From a virus: 20,658 nt of DNA. Position 1 is the stretch's first letter. Each line of letters opens with the position of its first letter. Shown here in pieces: positions 508 to 9,475 of this stretch. The notes below the pieces were generated by a model. It was not told the DNA's origin. It saw only the letters and a list, made by a program, of their open reading frames with translations, and searched no databases. The DNA lies in IMG/VR virus record IMGVR_UViG_3300020411_001998, positions 1 to 20,658 of that record; one strand, 5' to 3'. The position numbers and the translations under genes were made by a program.

Positions 508-536
508 TTGACACGCACGCAAGAATGTTGTATAGT
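508..536 (+). promoter_or_regulatory. Sigma-70 promoter (TTGACA, 17 nt, TATAGT)
   Basis: Perfect -35 TTGACA at 508-513, 17-nt spacer, -10 TATAGT at 531-536. Predicted start near 543, only about 8 nt before the ATG at 551. It is the only clear housekeeping-type promoter in the left region and contrasts with the twelve -24/-12 promoters that follow. Confidence 0.8.
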
Positions 537-550
537 TAGAGAATAATCAT

Positions 551-742
551 ATGAAGAGAGAACAAGTAAGAAGCGGGCGTCTTTATTTTAACAAGGCGCG
601 GAAACAAGTTGAGCAAGTGCGGAGCTCAGCATCAGGATCCTCGGTCATCACCGCACGTAAAGATGGCCAAGCCATGGTCGCTAAGGCGGAGGACCTTAGG
701 CGTGCTAGCAAACGGGAGGTTGACAAGTACTTAGAACGTTAA
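551..742 (+). CDS. Small basic protein, unknown function
   Basis: 63 aa, rich in Lys/Arg (MKREQVRSGRLYFNKARKQ at the start; DLRRASKREVDKYLER at the end) with a Ser/Ala middle. The composition fits a nucleic-acid-binding or host-factor-binding early protein, but I recognise no family. The gene is a complete monocistronic unit: a consensus sigma-70 promoter before it, almost no leader, no SD, and a strong intrinsic terminator 20 bp after the stop. Such isolation with a strong promoter is typical of a gene expressed immediately after infection; that timing is inference. Confidence 0.7.
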   Translation: MKREQVRSGRLYFNKARKQVEQVRSSASGSSVITARKDGQAMVAKAEDLRRASKREVDKYLER

Positions 743-867: not shown

Positions 868-908
868 GGTAGTTGCAGGGCGGGCGCAGCGGGCCGGCAA
901 CAACTACC
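868..908 (+). repeat. Hairpin module, long form (copy 1)
   Basis: GGTAGTTG (868-875) pairs with CAACTACC (901-908) around a G+C-rich loop. The only other long-form copy is at 4176-4216. No T-run follows. Confidence 0.75.
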
Positions 909-918
909 ACATTTGAAG

Positions 919-945
919 TTGGCACGGAACTTGCTGTATATAGGT
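919..945 (+). promoter_or_regulatory. Sigma-54-type promoter 1
   Basis: Core TTGGCACGGAACTTGCT (919-935) fits the -24/-12 consensus YTGGCACGNNNNTTGCW at every position. Counting C934 as -12 puts +1 at 946, the A of the DUF2958-like start codon. A TATAGG follows the -12 box. Confidence 0.75.
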
Positions 946-1227
946 ATGAAGTTAATGACAGAAGCAATTCAATCCTCACTACCAACCCGCAACGAGAGCG
1001 ATGACGCTCAAGCCGTGGTTAAGTATTTCACGCCTGACGCTGACTGGACTTGGTACGCTACCGAGTACGACCCAGAGAGCCGTTTGTTCTTTGGCTTGGT
1101 GGATGGGTTTGAGAGAGAGCTAGGTTATTTCAGCTTGGATGAGTTGGAGCAACTGCGTGGGCCTTTAGGCTTGCCAGTGGAGCGTGACCTATATTGGAAG
1201 CCAACCCCATTGTCAGAGTTGGCATAG
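946..1227 (+). CDS. DUF2958-like protein
   Basis: 93 aa. The order KYFTPDADWTWYATEYDP, LFFGLV, ELGYFSLDEL and GLPVERDLYWKP matches the DUF2958 signature as I remember it; the family is common on plasmids and phages and has no established activity. The reading frame is open from 865, but I place the start at ATG 946 because it coincides with the predicted +1 of promoter 1, leaving no 5' leader; the translated part upstream is promoter and hairpin. The last codons (LA, stop TAG 1225-1227) lie inside the -24 element of promoter 2. Confidence 0.8.
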   Translation: MKLMTEAIQSSLPTRNESDDAQAVVKYFTPDADWTWYATEYDPESRLFFGLVDGFERELGYFSLDELEQLRGPLGLPVERDLYWKPTPLSELA

Positions 1228-1245
1228 AACCTGCTATGTATAAGG
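1219..1245 (+). promoter_or_regulatory. Sigma-54-type promoter 2, overlapping a stop codon
   Basis: TTGGCATAGAACCTGCT (1219-1235). The usual CACGG is CATAG here, which supplies the TAG stop of the gene upstream. Predicted +1 at 1246, 5 nt before ATG 1251. No hairpin precedes it. Confidence 0.7.
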
Positions 1246-1250
1246 TAGAT

Positions 1251-1490
1251 ATGATAAAAGGACAAGTATGGCGCAACAAGCGCAACGGACAGTTGGAGCG
1301 GATTAATCAATCTCGCTGGAATGAAACCACAGCCCGCACCGAGCATTATTATCGGGCGCGAGTTAGCGACCCTTTACCCAAGGGAGACTTGGAGAGGGTC
1401 ACGCATCGGGAGGCTCTTGCCTACGTCGAGGCGCAACGTAAACATGAACGGTCGGGATTACCAGCCCTGCCACTTCCTGCTGGGGTATAA
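1251..1490 (+). CDS. Small protein of unknown function
   Basis: 79 aa starting MIKGQVWRNKRNGQLERI, with several basic residues and WNETTARTEHYYRARVSD in the middle; an N-terminal beta-rich fold of the 'G-x-V-W-x-N' kind is suggested by eye only. The start is set by promoter 2, since the frame is open from 1194 but that part belongs to the gene and promoter upstream. It heads a three-gene operon with 1492 and 1659. No known family recognised. Confidence 0.65.
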   Translation: MIKGQVWRNKRNGQLERINQSRWNETTARTEHYYRARVSDPLPKGDLERVTHREALAYVEAQRKHERSGLPALPLPAGV

Positions 1491-1491
1491 A

Positions 1492-1662
1492 ATGAAAGAC
1501 AAACAACCAGACATCAAGAAGCAGTTGTTGGCTGTGTTGTTCTACCAGAACGTGGCTGGTGCGAGGAACGTCTCCGTTAAGGAGCGTTACTTCGCACTGG
1601 CCCAAGATGTCGGAGCAATTCACGAAGATAAAGAACCAAAGCACAGCAAAGAATTAATATGA
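1492..1662 (+). CDS. Small protein of unknown function, second in operon
   Basis: 56 aa starting MKDKQPDIKKQLLAVLFYQN. It begins 2 nt after the TAA of the preceding gene, has GGGG about 6 nt upstream as a weak ribosome site, and no promoter of its own. Its final TGA overlaps the ATG of the next gene (ATGA, 1659-1662), which suggests translational coupling. No recognised domain. Confidence 0.6.
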   Translation: MKDKQPDIKKQLLAVLFYQNVAGARNVSVKERYFALAQDVGAIHEDKEPKHSKELI

Positions 1663-1880
1663 TCGCAGATACGCCAGAAGAAATTGAATTCTATAGATTG
1701 AGAGCATTACGCAGTGCGCTTAAACTTGAGATTCTTGGAATGAAACGACGAGGGCAATCAGCCTACTCAATCATCAAGAAGGAGTTCGGTTTTAAGGGAA
1801 GTCGAAATAAGGTATTGCGAGAGTTAAATACCTTAATAACAACCAAAGCCGAGCAACTCCCCTTCCGAGTGAGGGGGTAG
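1659..1880 (+). CDS. Small helical protein, possible DNA-binding
   Basis: 73 aa, predicted mostly helical: EEIEFYRLRALRSALKLEIL, then GMKRRGQSAYSIIKKEFGFK, then RNKVLRELNTLI. The middle part (GQSAYSIIKKEFGFKGSRNK) has the look of a helix-turn-helix, but this is a visual judgement. Similar small proteins with 'G-x-S-x-x-x-I-K-x-E-F-G' are common in T4-like phage early regions. The stop TAG (1878-1880) is also the first triplet of the next hairpin/promoter module. Confidence 0.65.
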   Translation: MIADTPEEIEFYRLRALRSALKLEILGMKRRGQSAYSIIKKEFGFKGSRNKVLRELNTLITTKAEQLPFRVRG

Positions 1881-1900
1881 TTGCAGAGCGGCGGCTGCGA
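1878..1900 (+). repeat. Hairpin module, shortest copy (copy 2)
   Basis: Starts with the stop TAG of the gene upstream; GCAG (1883-1886) can pair with CTGC (1895-1898). The 3' half found in the other copies is missing, and the promoter follows directly. Confidence 0.5.
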
Positions 1901-1927
1901 TTGGCACGGAACTTGCTCTGTATAGGT
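1901..1927 (+). promoter_or_regulatory. Sigma-54-type promoter 3
   Basis: TTGGCACGGAACTTGCT (1901-1917), identical to promoter 1. Predicted +1 at 1928 is the A of the start codon. Confidence 0.75.
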
Positions 1928-2098
1928 ATGCATATGCAACATTGGACAGTACGAACCTACAACTACAAAACTGACACCACAAGCTATAGCGTGTATAGCA
2001 ACATGAGCAAGGAGGAGGCTGTACGCATAGCCAAGGCAGACCACCCAAATAGCGTCGAGAATGGGGTGTGGCCCTACATCCTAGACATCTGCAAGTAG
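1928..2098 (+). CDS. Small protein of unknown function
   Basis: 56 aa, MHMQHWTVRTYNYKTDTTSY then SNMSKEEAVRIAKADHP and VWPYILDICK: probably two beta strands followed by an amphipathic helix. The start at 1928 is chosen because it is the predicted transcription start; a second in-frame ATG at 1934 is possible. The stop TAG (2096-2098) opens the next hairpin module. No family recognised. Confidence 0.65.
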   Translation: MHMQHWTVRTYNYKTDTTSYSVYSNMSKEEAVRIAKADHPNSVENGVWPYILDICK

Positions 2099-2130
2099 TT
2101 GCAGCGGGGCCGCTGCCGCCCGCCTACAAC
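2096..2130 (+). repeat. Hairpin module (copy 3)
   Basis: GCAGCG (2101-2106) pairs with CGCTGC (2111-2116); the outer GTTG can pair with the CAAC ending at 2130. Confidence 0.65.
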
Positions 2131-2157
2131 TTGGCACACATCCTGCTGTGTATAGTG
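2131..2157 (+). promoter_or_regulatory. Sigma-54-type promoter 4
   Basis: TTGGCACACATCCTGCT (2131-2147). The bases between the boxes differ from the other copies (ACAT for GGAA) while GG, CA and TGCT are kept, which argues against GGAAC being the key element. Predicted +1 2158; ATG 2159. Confidence 0.7.
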
Positions 2158-2158
2158 T

Positions 2159-2233
2159 ATGATTGAATTGTTGTTTGCGAATAGCGTTGTTTTACTTTGG
2201 GTCTGCTTTATGACTAAAATGATAAGAGGATAA
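2159..2233 (+). CDS. 24-aa membrane micropeptide
   Basis: MIELLFANSVVLLWVCFMT followed by a basic tail KMIRG. One hydrophobic segment fills the peptide. The start lies 1 nt after the predicted start of promoter 4. Its 3' end contains AGAGG, which serves as ribosome site for the next micropeptide, so the two are probably made as a pair. Function unknown. Confidence 0.5.
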   Translation: MIELLFANSVVLLWVCFMTKMIRG

Positions 2234-2235
2234 TT

Positions 2236-2313
2236 ATGGAATTAATATTAATTGTAAGCGTTGTTGTGTTGGCGTTTGGCTCATTCTATTTGAGCATAAC
2301 CAGCCACCTCTAG
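2236..2313 (+). CDS. 25-aa membrane micropeptide
   Basis: MELILIVSVVVLAFGSFYLS then ITSHL: a single hydrophobic helix. AGAGG (2225-2229) lies 6 nt before the ATG, a good SD, and the start is 2 nt after the previous stop. Downstream is hairpin copy 4. Function unknown; small holin-like or membrane-modulating roles are possible but unsupported. Confidence 0.55.
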   Translation: MELILIVSVVVLAFGSFYLSITSHL

Positions 2314-2316
2314 AGG

Positions 2317-2351
2317 TAGTTGCAGCAGGGCCGCTGCGGCCGGCTTGCAAG
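2317..2351 (+). repeat. Hairpin module (copy 4)
   Basis: Outer TTGCA (2320-2324) pairs with TGCAA (2346-2350); inner GGCCG (2329-2333) pairs with CGGCC (2337-2341) around CTG. Confidence 0.7.
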
Positions 2352-2378
2352 TTGGCACGGAACCTGCTGTGTATAGGG
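2352..2378 (+). promoter_or_regulatory. Sigma-54-type promoter 5
   Basis: TTGGCACGGAACCTGCT (2352-2368). Predicted +1 at 2379, 8 nt before ATG 2387, the longest leader among the twelve. Confidence 0.72.
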
Positions 2379-2386
2379 TAGAGATT

Positions 2387-2536
2387 ATGAAAGACAAACA
2401 CGAATTCAAGAGCGACCTGCACGAATGGCTCGCAGAGATGAAAGCTAGGCAGGAGATTAACCGCAAGCGTGATGAGGAGCAAGCCCGTTGGGATGCCCAA
2501 TTCAACGCTCCGCTCAACATCAAGGATAGAGACTAG
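2387..2536 (+). CDS. Small charged helical protein, unknown function
   Basis: 49 aa, strongly charged: MKDKHEFKSDLHEWLAEMKA, RQEINRKRDEEQARWDAQF. It should be largely alpha-helical, possibly coiled coil. The frame is open from 2345 but that part is promoter sequence, so ATG 2387 is chosen. TAG (2534-2536) is followed at once by a second TAG that opens the next module. Confidence 0.6.
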   Translation: MKDKHEFKSDLHEWLAEMKARQEINRKRDEEQARWDAQFNAPLNIKDRD

Positions 2537-2571
2537 TAGTTGCACGGGGCGCGCTGCCCCCGACCTGCAAG
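2537..2571 (+). repeat. Hairpin module (copy 5)
   Basis: Outer TTGCA (2540-2544) with TGCAA (2566-2570); inner GGGGC (2546-2550) with GCCCC (2556-2560). Confidence 0.7.
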
Positions 2572-2598
2572 TTGGCACGGAACCTGCTGTGTATAGGT
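2572..2598 (+). promoter_or_regulatory. Sigma-54-type promoter 6
   Basis: TTGGCACGGAACCTGCT (2572-2588); predicted +1 2599 is the A of ATG. Confidence 0.75.
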
Positions 2599-2808
2599 AT
2601 GGATAGGAAGATTTTACCCTGCAACAACTGCAAGATAACACAAGCGCCCGAAGTGCCGGAGAGCACTCAAAACATCGAGGGCGACCTTCGTGACTTGATG
2701 CCCACCTCACAGGAAGCCTATGACGGTTGGGGTGGCTGCTGGCCCGGTGACGGAAGTGGCATGGATGACTTTGAAGATTGGAACCAGCAAGAAGGCTGGG
2801 ATATGTAA
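2599..2808 (+). CDS. Small acidic protein with a CxxC motif
   Basis: 69 aa. An N-terminal PCNNCK (Cys8, Cys11) is followed by an acidic, Trp/Gly-rich second half (YDGWGGCWPGDGSGMDDFED, then WNQQEGWDM). The strongly acidic tail resembles DNA-mimic or protein-binding phage products, but no family is recognised. It starts exactly at the predicted +1 of promoter 6. The stop TAA is 1 nt from promoter 7, with no hairpin between. Confidence 0.6.
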   Translation: MDRKILPCNNCKITQAPEVPESTQNIEGDLRDLMPTSQEAYDGWGGCWPGDGSGMDDFEDWNQQEGWDM

Positions 2809-2809
2809 G

Positions 2810-2836
2810 TTGGCACGGAACCTGCTCTGTATATAG
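2810..2836 (+). promoter_or_regulatory. Sigma-54-type promoter 7, no hairpin
   Basis: TTGGCACGGAACCTGCT (2810-2826), directly after the stop codon of the previous gene. Predicted +1 2837; ATG 2838. Confidence 0.74.
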
Positions 2837-2837
2837 T

Positions 2838-3107
2838 ATGATGAACGAATTAGAACAATTCAAGGAGGATAGCGCAATGTCGTTATTCGGGCGTAGTCGT
2901 GAGATTGCCATCGCTGGCGGTCAGTGCGTCAAGTGCGGCTCACTAAACCTTGAGTTCAGAGATGAACTCTCCCGCAAGGAGCATGGCATCTCCGGTCTCT
3001 GCCAAGGTTGCCAAGATGAAATCTTCGGCGGCCCAGAGGAGGACGACGATGGAGAGAAGGAGATTGTTCTTGATTTTATGCATAAAATTCTTAAGGATAA
3101 AGAATGA
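2838..3107 (+). CDS. Phage zinc-ribbon protein, two possible starts
   Basis: 89 aa from ATG 2838 (a second ATG follows at once). Cys30-x2-Cys33 and Cys55-x2-Cys58 around LNLEFRDELSRKEHGISG form a four-cysteine zinc ribbon of a kind frequent in tailed phages; the tail is acidic (PEEDDDGEKEI). ATG 2838 is 1 nt after the predicted transcription start. An internal in-frame ATG at 2877 has a consensus AAGGAGG (2862-2868) 8 nt upstream and would give a 76-aa form that keeps the zinc ribbon. The stop overlaps the next start (ATGA, 3104-3107). Likely role is nucleic-acid or protein binding. Confidence 0.75.
   Translation: MMNELEQFKEDSAMSLFGRSREIAIAGGQCVKCGSLNLEFRDELSRKEHGISGLCQGCQDEIFGGPEEDDDGEKEIVLDFMHKILKDKE
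2862..2868 (+). promoter_or_regulatory. Internal Shine-Dalgarno AAGGAGG
   Basis: It lies inside the 5' end of the zinc-ribbon gene, 8 nt before in-frame ATG 2877, and could give a second, SD-driven product from the same message. Confidence 0.6.
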
Positions 3108-3277
3108 GTGGTAATTATTATGATGATGATTATTATGGCGATGAATACATTGGTCATAGTAAGTATGAGCGTGTGCTAAAAGAGTGCAAGCGATGTGGGC
3201 AAACTGTGGACATGAGCAGCGATCACGGAATCTGTGACTCATGCGCCACTCAAATAGAACGTGGTTGGGAGTACTAG
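3104..3277 (+). CDS. Small zinc-ribbon protein
   Basis: 57 aa. A Tyr/Asp-rich start (MSGNYYDDDYYGDEY) is followed by Cys28-x2-Cys31 (CKRC) and Cys44-x2-Cys47 (CDSC), a compact zinc ribbon. It overlaps the preceding gene by 4 nt and has AAGGA at 3093-3097 as ribosome site, so it is translated as the second cistron of promoter 7. Two zinc-ribbon genes in tandem suggest a shared function, but none is known to me. Confidence 0.7.
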   Translation: MSGNYYDDDYYGDEYIGHSKYERVLKECKRCGQTVDMSSDHGICDSCATQIERGWEY

Positions 3278-3286
3278 TTAACAAAT

Positions 3287-3308
3287 AGAGGAGACACATA
3301 TGCCATAA
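3287..3308 (+). other. SD plus two-codon minigene (ATG CCA TAA)
   Basis: AGAGGAG (3287-3293) lies 6 nt before ATG 3300-3302, an ideal spacing, but the frame is only Met-Pro-stop. It may be the decayed 5' end of a lost gene, or a two-codon minigene comparable to the lambda bar minigenes. The bases after it to 3327 hold no gene. Confidence 0.4.
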
Positions 3309-3327
3309 CATAAACATACATTTTAGG

Positions 3328-3362
3328 TAGTTGCAGCAGGGCGGCTGCCGCCAGCCCGCAAG
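3328..3362 (+). repeat. Hairpin module (copy 6)
   Basis: Inner GGCGG (3340-3344) pairs with CCGCC (3348-3352) around CTG; outer TTGC (3331-3334) with GCAA (3358-3361). Confidence 0.7.
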
Positions 3363-3389
3363 TTGGCATGGAACCTGCTGTGTATAGGT
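3363..3389 (+). promoter_or_regulatory. Sigma-54-type promoter 8
   Basis: TTGGCATGGAACCTGCT (3363-3379); predicted +1 3390 is the A of ATG. Confidence 0.74.
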
Positions 3390-3521
3390 ATGAAAGCGAA
3401 GGCAACCACCAAAGTGATTAAAGCTAGGGTAAACCCGCAGGGCTATATGGGTAGCGCAAGCCAAGAGCATCGCCCCAAGAAGGGCAAAGGTAGCTATAGG
3501 CGTAAACCTAAACACCCATAA
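3390..3521 (+). CDS. ArfA-like alternative ribosome-rescue factor
   Basis: 43 aa, very basic. The C-terminal KKGKGSYRRKPKH closely matches the conserved KKGKGSYxRKxKH segment of ArfA (PF03889), the part that lies in the empty mRNA channel of a stalled ribosome and recruits RF2. The N-terminal half (MKAKATTKVIKARVNPQGYM) is shorter and different from bacterial ArfA, and the hydrophobic C-terminal tail that makes host ArfA unstable is absent, so the protein should be stable and constitutively active (inference). It is leaderless by position of promoter 8. It was too short for a 60-aa ORF cutoff. A general basic RNA-binding peptide is the alternative. Confidence 0.65.
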   Translation: MKAKATTKVIKARVNPQGYMGSASQEHRPKKGKGSYRRKPKHP

Positions 3522-3525
3522 TTTT

Positions 3526-3726
3526 ATGAAAGCAGTAATTGAAATTGAGTTAGGCAATGATGCCTTTGGTAACAACGATGCAGCGCGTTTGTATGAGATG
3601 CGTAATGTGATGGACAGACTAATGGACAATGCCCAGCGCATTATGGCAGCAGATGTCGGTGACATGGTTACAGCACAAGACTATAACGGCAACACAGTTG
3701 CAAGAATGGATATTGTAGATGAGTGA
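3526..3726 (+). CDS. Small acidic protein, unknown function
   Basis: 66 aa: MKAVIEIELGNDAFGNNDAA, RLYEMRNVMDRLMDNAQRIM, AADVGDMVTAQDYNGNTVAR. The layout, beta strand, helix, then a final strand with a 'D-x-N-G-N-x-V' turn, is typical of many small phage proteins of unknown role. It starts 5 nt after the ArfA-like stop without SD or promoter, so it is the second cistron of promoter 8; ATG 3719 of the next gene lies within its 3' end (8-nt overlap). Confidence 0.7.
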   Translation: MKAVIEIELGNDAFGNNDAARLYEMRNVMDRLMDNAQRIMAADVGDMVTAQDYNGNTVARMDIVDE

Positions 3727-3910
3727 AGCACCACAATTCGCTATATTCCAGAATAGCCGCACCAAGCAATCAGCAATCTGGACAGGTGATAAATGGACTG
3801 ATGCACCGCAAGAAGATTACGAGCATTTGCGTTTGCTCGCTACTCTAATACGGACTGACCCAGACCCCGTGGGGATAGTCAAAGCAATAGTCAAGAAGAA
3901 TGAGGAGTAG
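3719..3910 (+). CDS. Small protein of unknown function
   Basis: 63 aa: MSEAPQFAIFQNSRTKQSAI, WTGDKWTDAPQEDYEHLRLL, then a helix ending KAIVKKNEE. It overlaps the previous gene by 8 nt and is the third cistron of promoter 8. The stop TAG (3908-3910) is the first triplet of hairpin copy 7. No family recognised. Confidence 0.68.
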   Translation: MSEAPQFAIFQNSRTKQSAIWTGDKWTDAPQEDYEHLRLLATLIRTDPDPVGIVKAIVKKNEE

Positions 3911-3942
3911 TTGCGGCTGGGCCGCAGCCGCTGGTCTGCAAG
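3908..3942 (+). repeat. Hairpin module (copy 7)
   Basis: The strongest stem of the set: GCGGCTG (3913-3919) pairs perfectly with CAGCCGC (3925-3931). Confidence 0.75.
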
Positions 3943-3969
3943 TTGGCACGTATCCTGCTGTGTATAGGT
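3943..3969 (+). promoter_or_regulatory. Sigma-54-type promoter 9
   Basis: TTGGCACGTATCCTGCT (3943-3959), again with changed bases only between the two boxes. Predicted +1 3970; ATG 3972. Confidence 0.72.
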
Positions 3970-3971
3970 AT

Positions 3972-4175
3972 ATGTTAGGTGATAACGACATTCCAAAGGT
4001 AGGTGACCGAGTGGTTCACAAGCACAACGTAATGCTCAAGGGCACAGTAGTAGGTTACCCTGCCTTCCCTGCTCCTCGTCGGGGTAATCTTATGGTGCAG
4101 CTTGAGTGCGGTTTGACGTACCAAGCCACCAAATACGTTTGGCGTAAGATAAACTACGAGGTATTCAACTACTGA
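3972..4175 (+). CDS. Small SH3-like beta-barrel protein (tentative)
   Basis: 67 aa: IPKVGDRVVHKHNVMLKGTV, then NLMVQLECGLTYQATKYVW. The 'VGDRV...G.V...V.LE.G' alternation suggests a small SH3-like barrel, perhaps binding nucleic acid or protein. The frame is open from 3900, but that part covers the hairpin and promoter, so ATG 3972 is preferred, 2 nt after the predicted transcription start. Similar in look to the 4593 product. Confidence 0.65.
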   Translation: MLGDNDIPKVGDRVVHKHNVMLKGTVVGYPAFPAPRRGNLMVQLECGLTYQATKYVWRKINYEVFNY

Positions 4176-4216
4176 GGTAGTTGCAGGGAGGCCGCTGCCG
4201 ACCGGCAACAACTACC
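4176..4216 (+). repeat. Hairpin module, long form (copy 8)
   Basis: GGTAGTTG (4176-4183) pairs with CAACTACC (4209-4216), as in copy 1, including the following ACATT. Confidence 0.75.
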
Positions 4217-4226
4217 ACATTCAGAC

Positions 4227-4253
4227 TTGGCACGGAACCTGCTACTATATAGG
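4227..4253 (+). promoter_or_regulatory. Sigma-54-type promoter 10
   Basis: TTGGCACGGAACCTGCT (4227-4243); predicted +1 4254, 6 nt before ATG 4260. Confidence 0.73.
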
Positions 4254-4259
4254 TAGATT

Positions 4260-4439
4260 ATGAAGATTAAACCTACATCCCTCGCAACTCGCCGCACCGC
4301 TAACCGCATCAACGAGCATGGCCGCTTTGGCTTCCTCATTGCTGGTCGCAAGGCGGACGGTTCGGAGTGGTTACTCCGCTCTCGTTTAACCAAGTGGTTG
4401 GGTTGGTTGCCCACCCGTGAGTTCACAGAAGCAGACTAG
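4260..4439 (+). CDS. Small basic protein, unknown function
   Basis: 59 aa: MKIKPTSLATRRTANRINEH, GRFGFLIAGRKADGSEWLLR, SRLTKWLGWLPTREFTEAD. Rich in Arg with a Trp-containing helix near the C-terminus; an RNA- or DNA-binding role is plausible but unproven. Missed by a 60-aa cutoff. A structured, gene-free stretch follows. Confidence 0.62.
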   Translation: MKIKPTSLATRRTANRINEHGRFGFLIAGRKADGSEWLLRSRLTKWLGWLPTREFTEAD

Positions 4440-4448
4440 AATGTAAGC

Positions 4449-4515
4449 CCCCTGCTCTACGCTTGAGGAACTCGAAGTGCCATGGGCCTCGTTCCGACAC
4501 AGCGTGAAGCAGGGG
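4449..4515 (+). ncRNA. Long imperfect hairpin, possible structured RNA
   Basis: CCCCTGCTCTACGCT (4449-4463) pairs with AGCGTGAAGCAGGGG (4501-4515): 15 positions with one C-A mismatch and one U-G wobble. Within the 37-nt loop GGAAC can pair with GTTCC. It is not a tRNA (no cloverleaf, no canonical T-loop) and not an intrinsic terminator (no T-run). It is probably transcribed from promoter 10 with the 4260 gene. Confidence 0.45.
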
Positions 4516-4523
4516 CAGTCTGG

Positions 4524-4559
4524 GTAGTTGCAGCTGGGCCGCTGCCGCCGGCCCACAAC
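4524..4559 (+). repeat. Hairpin module (copy 9)
   Basis: GGGCCG (4536-4541) pairs with CGGCCC (4549-4554); outer GTTG with CAAC (4555-4558). Confidence 0.7.
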
Positions 4560-4586
4560 TTGGCACGGAACCTGCTGTGTATAAGG
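4560..4586 (+). promoter_or_regulatory. Sigma-54-type promoter 11
   Basis: TTGGCACGGAACCTGCT (4560-4576); predicted +1 4587, 6 nt before ATG 4593. Confidence 0.73.
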
Positions 4587-4592
4587 TAGATT

Positions 4593-4850
4593 ATGAATGA
4601 AGTAAACATCCTCCTCAACAACGAAGTCAAGGTGACTGACCATCGTAGTCAGTTCGTCGGCCAAACTGGTCTTGTGCGCCGCATCATGGCAGACGGTCGC
4701 ACTCTTGAGATTGAGCTTGCCCACACTAGCGGCATGATTGTCCTCTTGGACTACACCCTTGTGAGTGAGATTCAAGAGCGCACGCAGTTTGCCAAGGTAG
4801 AGCAAAGCCTTGGCCCAATCGCCAACAGCGTAGTAAAGGACACACTTTAA
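4593..4850 (+). CDS. Small KOW/SH3-like protein (tentative)
   Basis: 85 aa. NNEVKVTDHRSQFVGQTGLV followed by RRI resembles a KOW motif (small barrel of ribosomal and transcription-elongation proteins), then TLEIELAHTSGMIVLLDYTL and a helical C-terminus. If the match is real, the protein may bind RNA or RNA polymerase; this is inference. It is the first cistron of promoter 11; its stop overlaps the next start (TAATG, 4848-4852). Confidence 0.65.
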   Translation: MNEVNILLNNEVKVTDHRSQFVGQTGLVRRIMADGRTLEIELAHTSGMIVLLDYTLVSEIQERTQFAKVEQSLGPIANSVVKDTL

Positions 4851-4921
4851 TGCTGTTATCCATATTCCTGCTTTATATAATGTGGTCGGCTGTACAGTCA
4901 GCCAGCCAGAACTTGGCATAG
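4850..4921 (+). CDS. 23-aa membrane micropeptide
   Basis: MLLSIFLLYIMWSAVQSASQ then NLA: hydrophobic first half, polar end. AAAGGA (4835-4840) lies 9 nt upstream and the ATG overlaps the previous stop, so translational coupling is likely. The stop TAG lies inside the -24 element of promoter 12, the same arrangement as at 1225-1227, and both upstream proteins end in Leu-Ala. Confidence 0.5.
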   Translation: MLLSIFLLYIMWSAVQSASQNLA

Positions 4922-4939
4922 AACCTGCTGCGATATACC
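4913..4939 (+). promoter_or_regulatory. Sigma-54-type promoter 12, overlapping a stop codon
   Basis: TTGGCATAGAACCTGCT (4913-4929), with the stop-forming CATAG variant. Predicted +1 4940 is the A of ATG. No hairpin precedes it. Confidence 0.72.
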
Positions 4940-5107
4940 ATGAACGAACAACCAAAAGAAGCGATATTCGTCAAGATTGTCGATAAAACGAGTAAAATCG
5001 AGGAACAAAAGAAGCAAATTCATGAAATTGACTCAAAGATACGAGCCACTCAAGCAAAATTCCAACTTCCGCAGGGGCCAGCCTTCATAAATGGCCGGTG
5101 GTGGTGA
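4940..5107 (+). CDS. Small coiled-coil-like protein, last gene of the array
   Basis: 55 aa: MNEQPKEAIFVKIVDKTSKI, EEQKKQIHEIDSKIRATQAK, FQLPQGPAFINGRWW. The middle is a charged helix with heptad-like spacing; the Trp-Trp C-terminus is unusual. The stop TGA (5105-5107) sits in the loop of terminator 5097-5120, so translation ends within the terminator. Function unknown. Confidence 0.62.
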   Translation: MNEQPKEAIFVKIVDKTSKIEEQKKQIHEIDSKIRATQAKFQLPQGPAFINGRWW

Positions 5108-6524: not shown

Positions 6525-6579
6525 CGCCATGCAGTTTAAAAATGGTTAATTTAAATGTTATTGTGTAATTATTTGTACA

Positions 6580-8487: not shown

Positions 8488-8796
8488 ATGAAAATGTATT
8501 GCACAGAATGCGGAACTCCTTTAGAGTATACGACTAGTAAGCCTAAGTTTTGCTCTAATTGTGGGTATAATTTCGTAACCAAAACAAAAGCCTCAGATAA
8601 TACACTCGCTACACCCCCTCCCGATAATCAAAATTTAGATTCCGTCGAGCTAGACGAATATGACGTAAGAGAAATAGATCCACGCATACATGCAATGACT
8701 GGTCTAGACGTAGAAATAACAAAAGACGAGAGGAAGAGTATGACATTCGGACAAATGTTCCCGGATAATGAGACCGAAGAAAAAAAGAAAAAGTAA
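8488..8796 (+). CDS. Zinc-ribbon protein
   Basis: 102 aa. N-terminal Cys5-x2-Cys8 (CTEC) and Cys22-x2-Cys25 (CSNC) form a zinc ribbon of the kind found in zinc-ribbon/'double zinc ribbon' proteins; the rest is acidic, disordered-looking sequence with DVREIDPRIHAMTGLDVEIT and a Lys-rich end (EEKKKK). ATG 8494 is an alternative start. Its 3' end overlaps the sigma-factor gene by 29 nt, which suggests linked expression; such a protein could be a transcription cofactor (inference). Confidence 0.75.
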   Translation: MKMYCTECGTPLEYTTSKPKFCSNCGYNFVTKTKASDNTLATPPPDNQNLDSVELDEYDVREIDPRIHAMTGLDVEITKDERKSMTFGQMFPDNETEEKKKK

Positions 8797-9475
8797 GTCT
8801 AAAAAACCCTCTTTCGAAGAAAGTATTCATCTAGTAGATGAAGAGATCAGGAAAAGGAGAAATAAATGGAACCTTACGGCCTTGGCGTGGATGGATTACG
8901 AAGATGTTTCGCAAATCATTCGTGTCCATATATATAAAAAATGGGATATGTATGACCCAGCGAAACCACTGGGCCCTTGGTTGAACAGAATAATATCCAA
9001 CCAAATTAAAAATTTAATAAGAAATCATTATGGTAATTATAGTAGGCCATGTTTAAAATGTGCAGCTGCAGAAGGGGAGAATCTTTGCGAGATATATTCT
9101 AAACAGTGCTCTGATTGTCCATTATATGCAGATTGGGAAAAGAACAAAAAAAGAGCTTATGACATTAAGATACCGCTTTCAATAGAGAATCACCAGAACG
9201 AAGTGAAAATGTTGGAGCAGGGAGAGTTTAACATAGAAACTAATGCTAAAAAGCTACATGAGAAAATGCAAACTATTTTAAAGCCTTTAGAGTGGAAAAT
9301 GTATAATTACTTATATATAGAAAATAAATCTGAAAAAGAAGTTGCTAAATTAATGGGCTATAGGACTTCAGAAAAAAACAGATCCCCGGGTTACAAACAA
9401 ATTAAAAATATCAAGAAGTCCATACTAATAAAGGTTAAGAAAGTTTTAGATAAGCACGAAATAGACTTTTTTTAA
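8768..9475 (+). CDS. Phage RNA polymerase sigma factor (sigma-70 superfamily)
   Basis: 235 aa. A Lys-rich N-terminus is followed by region 2-like sequence: DYEDVSQIIRVHIYKKWDMY (43-62), then PLGPWLNRIISNQIKNLIRN (67-86). Residues 174-230 (LEWKMYNYLYIENKSEKEVAKLMG and following helices) form the region 4 helix-turn-helix. Between them is a Cys cluster (Cys95, 98, 107, 114, 117) in CLKC...C...CSDC form, probably metal-binding, which ordinary ECF sigma factors lack. By analogy with T4 gp55 it likely redirects host RNA polymerase to phage late promoters. The gene starts inside the zinc-ribbon gene and ends 1 nt before the next ATG. Confidence 0.75.
   Translation: MRPKKKRKSKSKKPSFEESIHLVDEEIRKRRNKWNLTALAWMDYEDVSQIIRVHIYKKWDMYDPAKPLGPWLNRIISNQIKNLIRNHYGNYSRPCLKCAAAEGENLCEIYSKQCSDCPLYADWEKNKKRAYDIKIPLSIENHQNEVKMLEQGEFNIETNAKKLHEKMQTILKPLEWKMYNYLYIENKSEKEVAKLMGYRTSEKNRSPGYKQIKNIKKSILIKVKKVLDKHEIDFF

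Follow-up and report, generated by a model that had tools for sequence, protein, structure and literature searches.

We describe an array of promoters set close before start codons in a 20,658-base virus record (IMGVR_UViG_3300020411_001998; "the window" is this whole stretch), a fragment of an uncultured marine phage with terminase, PhoH-like and tail genes. The region 919-4929 is best explained as an array of small accessory-gene cassettes, in which the first genes stand behind sigma-54-type (-24/-12) promoters and begin 0 to 8 nt past the predicted transcription start (+1). The first genes are probably truly leaderless, and this throughout the clade, because three promoter types found in the window and its relatives, each anchoring +1 by a different rule, all place it at the start codon. 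This agreement is the best evidence for leaderless first genes, and it also supports the sigma-54 reading. It is very probable that the array leaders measure at most about 10 nt, and equally probable that the promoters depend on sigma-54, for which RpoN and an enhancer-binding ATPase would be needed; that both hold together is likely. The window terminase has at most about 25% identity to those of cultivated phages, and no DNA match to the array was found in cultivated phages.

In the proposed mechanism, host RNA polymerase with host sigma-54 would be opened by a host enhancer-binding ATPase and would give a message starting at or near the AUG. Ribosomes would start on this 5'-terminal AUG by the leaderless route, without a Shine-Dalgarno (SD) sequence, and some downstream genes of the same message would use SDs. 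The usual cassette order is a GC-rich dyad after the preceding gene, a sigma-54-type promoter, and a gene whose ATG follows the predicted +1 within 0-8 nt. The motif, its spacing, the ATG position, the absence of an SD from the predicted message and the recurrence of the layout in five contigs and with three promoter types are seen directly; from them we infer sigma-54 dependence, the exact start sites, initiation by 70S ribosomes and a role of the dyad in insulation or at 3' ends.

The exact pattern TTGGCA-N6-YTGCT occurred at 12 sites in the window, all on the plus strand between 919 and 4929; none was found on the other strand of the window, and a reversed control pattern gave no match. The C of TGC was taken as -12, as in PMC4591121, and the sites with their start codons are as follows.

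919 to 946, plus strand: promoter 1 (TTGGCACGGAACTTGCT), predicted +1 is the A of ATG 946 (DUF2958 gene 946-1227), leader 0 nt
1219 to 1251, plus strand: promoter 2, ATG 1251, leader 5 nt, AAGG 5 nt before the ATG, overlaps the upstream stop codon
1901 to 1928, plus strand: promoter 3, ATG 1928, leader 0 nt
2131 to 2159, plus strand: promoter 4, ATG 2159 (open reading frame of 24 amino acids), leader 1 nt
2352 to 2387, plus strand: promoter 5, ATG 2387, leader 8 nt, AGGG upstream of the predicted +1
2572 to 2599, plus strand: promoter 6, ATG 2599, leader 0 nt
2810 to 2838, plus strand: promoter 7, ATG 2838, leader 1 nt, no hairpin, 1 nt past the upstream stop codon
3363 to 3390, plus strand: promoter 8, ATG 3390, leader 0 nt
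3943 to 3972, plus strand: promoter 9, ATG 3972, leader 2 nt
4227 to 4260, plus strand: promoter 10, ATG 4260, leader 6 nt
4560 to 4593, plus strand: promoter 11, ATG 4593, leader 6 nt, AAGG upstream of the predicted +1
4913 to 4940, plus strand: promoter 12, ATG 4940, leader 0 nt, overlaps the upstream stop codon

We derived a weight matrix from the 42 intergenic sigma-54 sites of E. coli that were mapped by chromatin immunoprecipitation sequencing (PMC4591121, Table 1). Exactly these 12 sites took the top 12 ranks when the window was scored with it. Their scores were 15.3-18.6, compared to 11.4 for the next-best window site and a median of 16.0 for the E. coli sites. The GG and GC doublets lay 12 bp apart within TGGCAC-N5-TTGC at 12 of 12 window sites and at 48 sites in five contigs; this spacing was invariant across all 48, whereas the distance from GC to TATA varied. 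A sigma-70 reading of the repeat was rejected, as the spacer from TTGGCA to TATA is variable (13-15 nt at sites measured by hand) and too short while the GG-GC distance is invariant.

The first-pass annotation of this DNA had let +1 coincide with the A of the start codon for promoters 1, 3, 6, 8 and 12 and had put it 1 to 8 nt before the ATG for the other seven. This arithmetic is exact throughout, with leaders of 5, 1, 8, 1, 2, 6 and 6 nt at promoters 2, 4, 5, 7, 9, 10 and 11. At promoter 2 the first ATG past the box (1236) lies upstream of +1, and ATG 1251 was hence used. When the 48 sites in five contigs were pooled, they preceded one tRNA gene and 47 protein genes, with leaders of 0 nt (n = 10), 1 nt (n = 15), 2 nt (n = 4), 5 nt (n = 4), 6 nt (n = 11), 7 nt (n = 1) and 8 nt (n = 2). 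Two classes are apparent, one of 0-2 nt (29 genes, TATAGG(G)TATG) and one of 5-8 nt (18 genes, GGTAGATTATG, termed class B), with no leader of 3-4 nt. Start codons were ATG in 46 of the 47 genes and TTG in one. In contrast, the 41 protein-coding genes behind intergenic E. coli sigma-54 sites had predicted leaders of at least 18 nt under the identical convention.

Relatives were gathered through the terminase and were abundant. The same array sites were present in G001, G002 and G003/G004, and a pattern scan of viral contigs identified a second, diverged array in the contig G010; motif, spacing and ATG position were conserved in five contigs. One copy in G010 drives tRNA-Arg(TCT), the 5' end of which lies 8 nt past the predicted +1, and TATAGG is retained there. 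Because this copy drives a tRNA, the element, TATAGG included, is indicated to be a promoter and not a translation signal. Orthologs, for example those of the gene at 3390, had N-termini that differed at the cassette junction, which is what one would expect of start codons set by the promoter.

Array-gene orthologs in more distant relatives sat behind other cassettes. One type consists of a hairpin (GGTAGGACTACGGATGTCCCACC), an extended -10 element (TATGNTATACT), six bases and the ATG; here the ATG fell exactly at the predicted +1 in 34 of 42 cassettes. The other type is a plain TTGACA/TATATT promoter; for TTGACA/TATAWT sites, the ATG lay within -1 to +2 of the predicted start in 66 of 98 cases in the clade loci, compared to 1 of 17 in other viral contigs. 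As read from the sequence, the promoter is replaced, not dropped, in these relatives. The claim that first genes are leaderless or nearly so is therefore supported at the level of prediction, and more strongly than from the window alone, since in relatives the ATG coincides with the predicted +1 of unrelated promoters too. We give about even chances to a broader view, that in a whole clade of marine phages the accessory and early genes are translated from 5'-terminal AUGs whatever the promoter, and that one lineage moved this programme from sigma-70 to sigma-54, bringing leaderless genes under activator control.

Several points weigh against leaderless, sigma-54-driven first genes. The base 12 nt past the -12 C is T, a poor initiating base, in 33 of the 48 pooled sites, and the real start is probably shifted by about 1 nt, to a purine or the next A, in many of them; with the start often at the next A, many 1-nt leaders would become exactly 0. 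The AGG, AAGG or GAGG of class B would act as an SD if transcription started about 5 nt earlier or read through from upstream. The array copies are homologous and related by duplication, and 12 sites are not 12 independent observations. Lastly, no rpoN or sigma-54 activator gene was found in 12 phage records, most of them incomplete, and the host would therefore supply both.

The alternative that survives best, although we consider it unlikely, is a short-leader start assisted by an SD: transcription would begin near TATA/AGG, class B messages would open with AGG or GAGG as a minimal SD, and only the 0-2 nt class would be leaderless. In class B the ATG is indeed preceded at 5-8 nt by AGG or AAGG (AAGAGG in G010), placed just outside the predicted message, upstream of +1, and the base 12 nt past the -12 C is often T. 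However, the tRNA promoter, which has no need of an SD, retains TATAGG, and the AGG may thus be part of the promoter. A message containing the AGG would require +1 at about 8 nt past the -12 C, below the usual sigma-54 distance, and the 29 genes with 0-2 nt leaders cannot use an SD at any start.

SD-like pairing was scored at a threshold of -4.4 kcal/mol or better. Only 1 of 12 first genes had a predicted SD; the figures were 4 of 7 for followers, 5 of 13 for right-hand genes and 26% for random positions. No SD fits between the predicted +1 and the ATG in any first gene; the earlier statement that first cistrons have no room for one is true for leaders of 0-2 nt, but for leaders of 5-8 nt it hinges on the exact start. 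The seven followers are as follows.

1492 to 1662, plus strand: follower gene, SD-like GGGG
1659 to 1880, plus strand: follower gene lacking an SD, overlaps the preceding gene at ATGA
2236 to 2313, plus strand: follower gene, SD-like AGAGGA
3104 to 3277, plus strand: follower gene, SD-like AAGGA
3526 to 3726, plus strand: follower gene without SD; its G010 ortholog has its own sigma-54-like site with a leader of 2 nt
3719 to 3910, plus strand: follower gene, weak SD
4850 to 4921, plus strand: follower gene, SD-like AAAGGA

Followers had been described as often SD-driven. The SDs near 2225, 3093 and 4835 are real, as is one at the 1492 gene, but the followers at 1659, 3526 and 3719 fall short. 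The proposal of two translation modes is weak and consequently reduces to a tendency at most.

Improbable, in our estimation, is a read-through explanation, in which upstream promoters give leadered functional messages and the sigma-54-type sites play a minor or conditional part. It would draw on the promoters at 1219, 2810 and 4913, which lack a hairpin and overlap or closely follow the stop codon of the gene before, and on the array terminators, which are not T-tailed; a scan for T-tailed terminators showed no excess in the array. Against it, read-through would leave the 0-2 nt class preceded by promoter sequence without a usable SD, the promoter is swapped and not dropped in relatives, and in G010 a T-tailed terminator stands directly before two sigma-54 sites, one of which is the tRNA promoter. 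At 1219 and 4913, the last codons of the upstream gene form the -24 box (TTG GCA TAG).

The dyads (GTAGTTGC..GCAACAACTAC) are located as follows.

869 to 918, plus strand: GC-rich dyad, long form, upstream of promoter 1; another at 4177-4226
2095 to 2130, plus strand: GC-rich dyad, short form; others at 2316-2351, 2536-2571, 3327-3362, 3907-3942 and 4524-4559

A dyad precedes 9 of the 12 promoters (one in short form) and is absent at the three sites that overlap or touch the upstream stop. The dyads have no T tail, their fold z-scores are modest (+0.3 to -2.6), and the left arm is conserved beyond pairing. The dyad could be a 3'-end insulator, another 3'-end element or an activator site. An Rfam search gave no match.

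Very improbable is a phage factor, either the sigma-70-like/gp55-like protein encoded at 8768-9475 or an unseen RNA polymerase, that reads the repeat and makes its sigma-54 likeness fortuitous, for although a protein with sigma-70 region 2 is encoded nearby and no activator or rpoN was found in the phages, the repeat is a full match to a sigma-54 matrix obtained independently from E. coli, relatives that lack the array have the gp55-like gene as well, structural genes use a different upstream word (GTGTAA), and a search for a single-subunit RNA polymerase gave no match, though its control search gave none either. The 8768-9475 protein (Pfam Sigma70_r2, phrog_1740) may be a late sigma factor of the gp55 kind. 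In G001 (L094, about 840-1830), a gene for a RuvB-like AAA+ ATPase, recognised by eye alone, lies upstream of the array. Flavobacteriales were rejected as host, the evidence being a single contig of a metagenome-assembled genome, a possible binning error, with a poor fit to TTGACA/TATAAT promoters.

The suggestion that leaderless initiation could matter late in host shutdown found no support. Ortholog promoters in relatives are host-type TTGACA/TATATT or extended -10, and it is the structural genes that bear GTGTAA; an early or middle role of the array genes would fit at least as well. GTGTAA was found 8-15 nt upstream of an ATG in 117 of 252 occurrences in the relatives' loci (L010-L089), compared to 4 of 272 for the reversed word. 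This word, which occurs in the window at 6563 and 13328, is a candidate core of late promoters, and such promoters would likewise imply very short leaders. An ordinary leadered gene also lies to the left of the array.

508 to 551, plus strand: ordinary sigma-70 promoter TTGACA-17-TATAGT, before the leadered gene 551-742

The pattern scan of viral contigs gave for the most part isolated sites, whose leaders were longer or absent, G010 being the one further array. TTGGCA-N6-YTGCT followed by TATA was seen in considerably more than a hundred viral contigs, many times with the same upstream words, and many of these sites may be true sigma-54 promoters with ordinary leaders. An unrelated viral contig (L100, 1457-1618) carries five tandem sigma-54-like sites within 160 bases. 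In a relative without the array (L098, G005:78000-97000), an intergenic palindrome (CACTTGGCACGAATCGTGC..TGCCAAGTG) looks sigma-54-like on both strands but is a hairpin; G005-type TTGGCACGAATCGTGC sites were likewise rejected as promoters because they are palindromic hairpins.

Leaderless genes are well known, as are sigma-54 promoters, but sigma-54 genes are normally leadered. In a phiYS40-type programme, most transcripts are leaderless and initiation factors are altered during infection; the array layout is only suggestive of such a programme. For the Thermus thermophilus phage phiYS40 itself, most middle and late messages are described as leaderless (Sevostyanova 2007, via PMC3594737; cited in PMC4842269). 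The likeness lies in largely leaderless phage messages and in extended -10 promoters, as in the relatives of the window. PhiYS40 differs in having mapped starts, a Thermus host and no sigma-54-type promoters, whereas the window has sigma-54-type promoters and predicted starts only.

Among cellular genes, leaderless genes of Bradyrhizobium are reported to have an extended -10 motif resembling that of leaderless phage genes (PMC4842269), and those of Deinococcus-Thermus a -10 motif (PMC12340547). Both resemble the array in having a promoter core so close before the open reading frame, at a few bases, that the mRNA is leaderless, but both concern sigma-70-type cellular genes, and the searched text of the two papers holds no description of leaderless genes behind -24/-12 promoters. 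The E. coli sigma-54 promoters (PMC4591121) share the -24/-12 motif, its spacing and the matrix score range; they differ in the long predicted leaders of their protein genes, compared to 0-8 nt in the window. In the open-access literature searched, no description of sigma-54-driven leaderless phage genes was found, and phage sigma-54 arrays are hardly described. If the reading is true, a clade in which three unrelated promoter types set +1 on the start codon would lend itself naturally to studies of initiation at a 5'-terminal AUG, and would let one ask why a virus should rely on such starts. Gene callers that rely on SDs will misplace starts in such phages.

A parallel in layout is offered by the PeSLs of T4-type phages, which are described as shuffled promoter/stem-loop cassettes (Arbiol 2010; Comeau 2014, cited in PMC4503421). 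Both systems have repeated promoter and stem-loop modules between small accessory genes, apparently shuffled among relatives. PeSLs carry early promoters, whereas the window has sigma-54-type promoters, a stem-loop without a T tail and an ATG fused to the promoter. The early sigma-70 promoter plus stem-loop that defines a PeSL is thus lacking in the window, and the relatives carry a hairpin with an extended -10. By analogy, the array would work like a leaderless, sigma-54-type version of PeSL-style cassettes.

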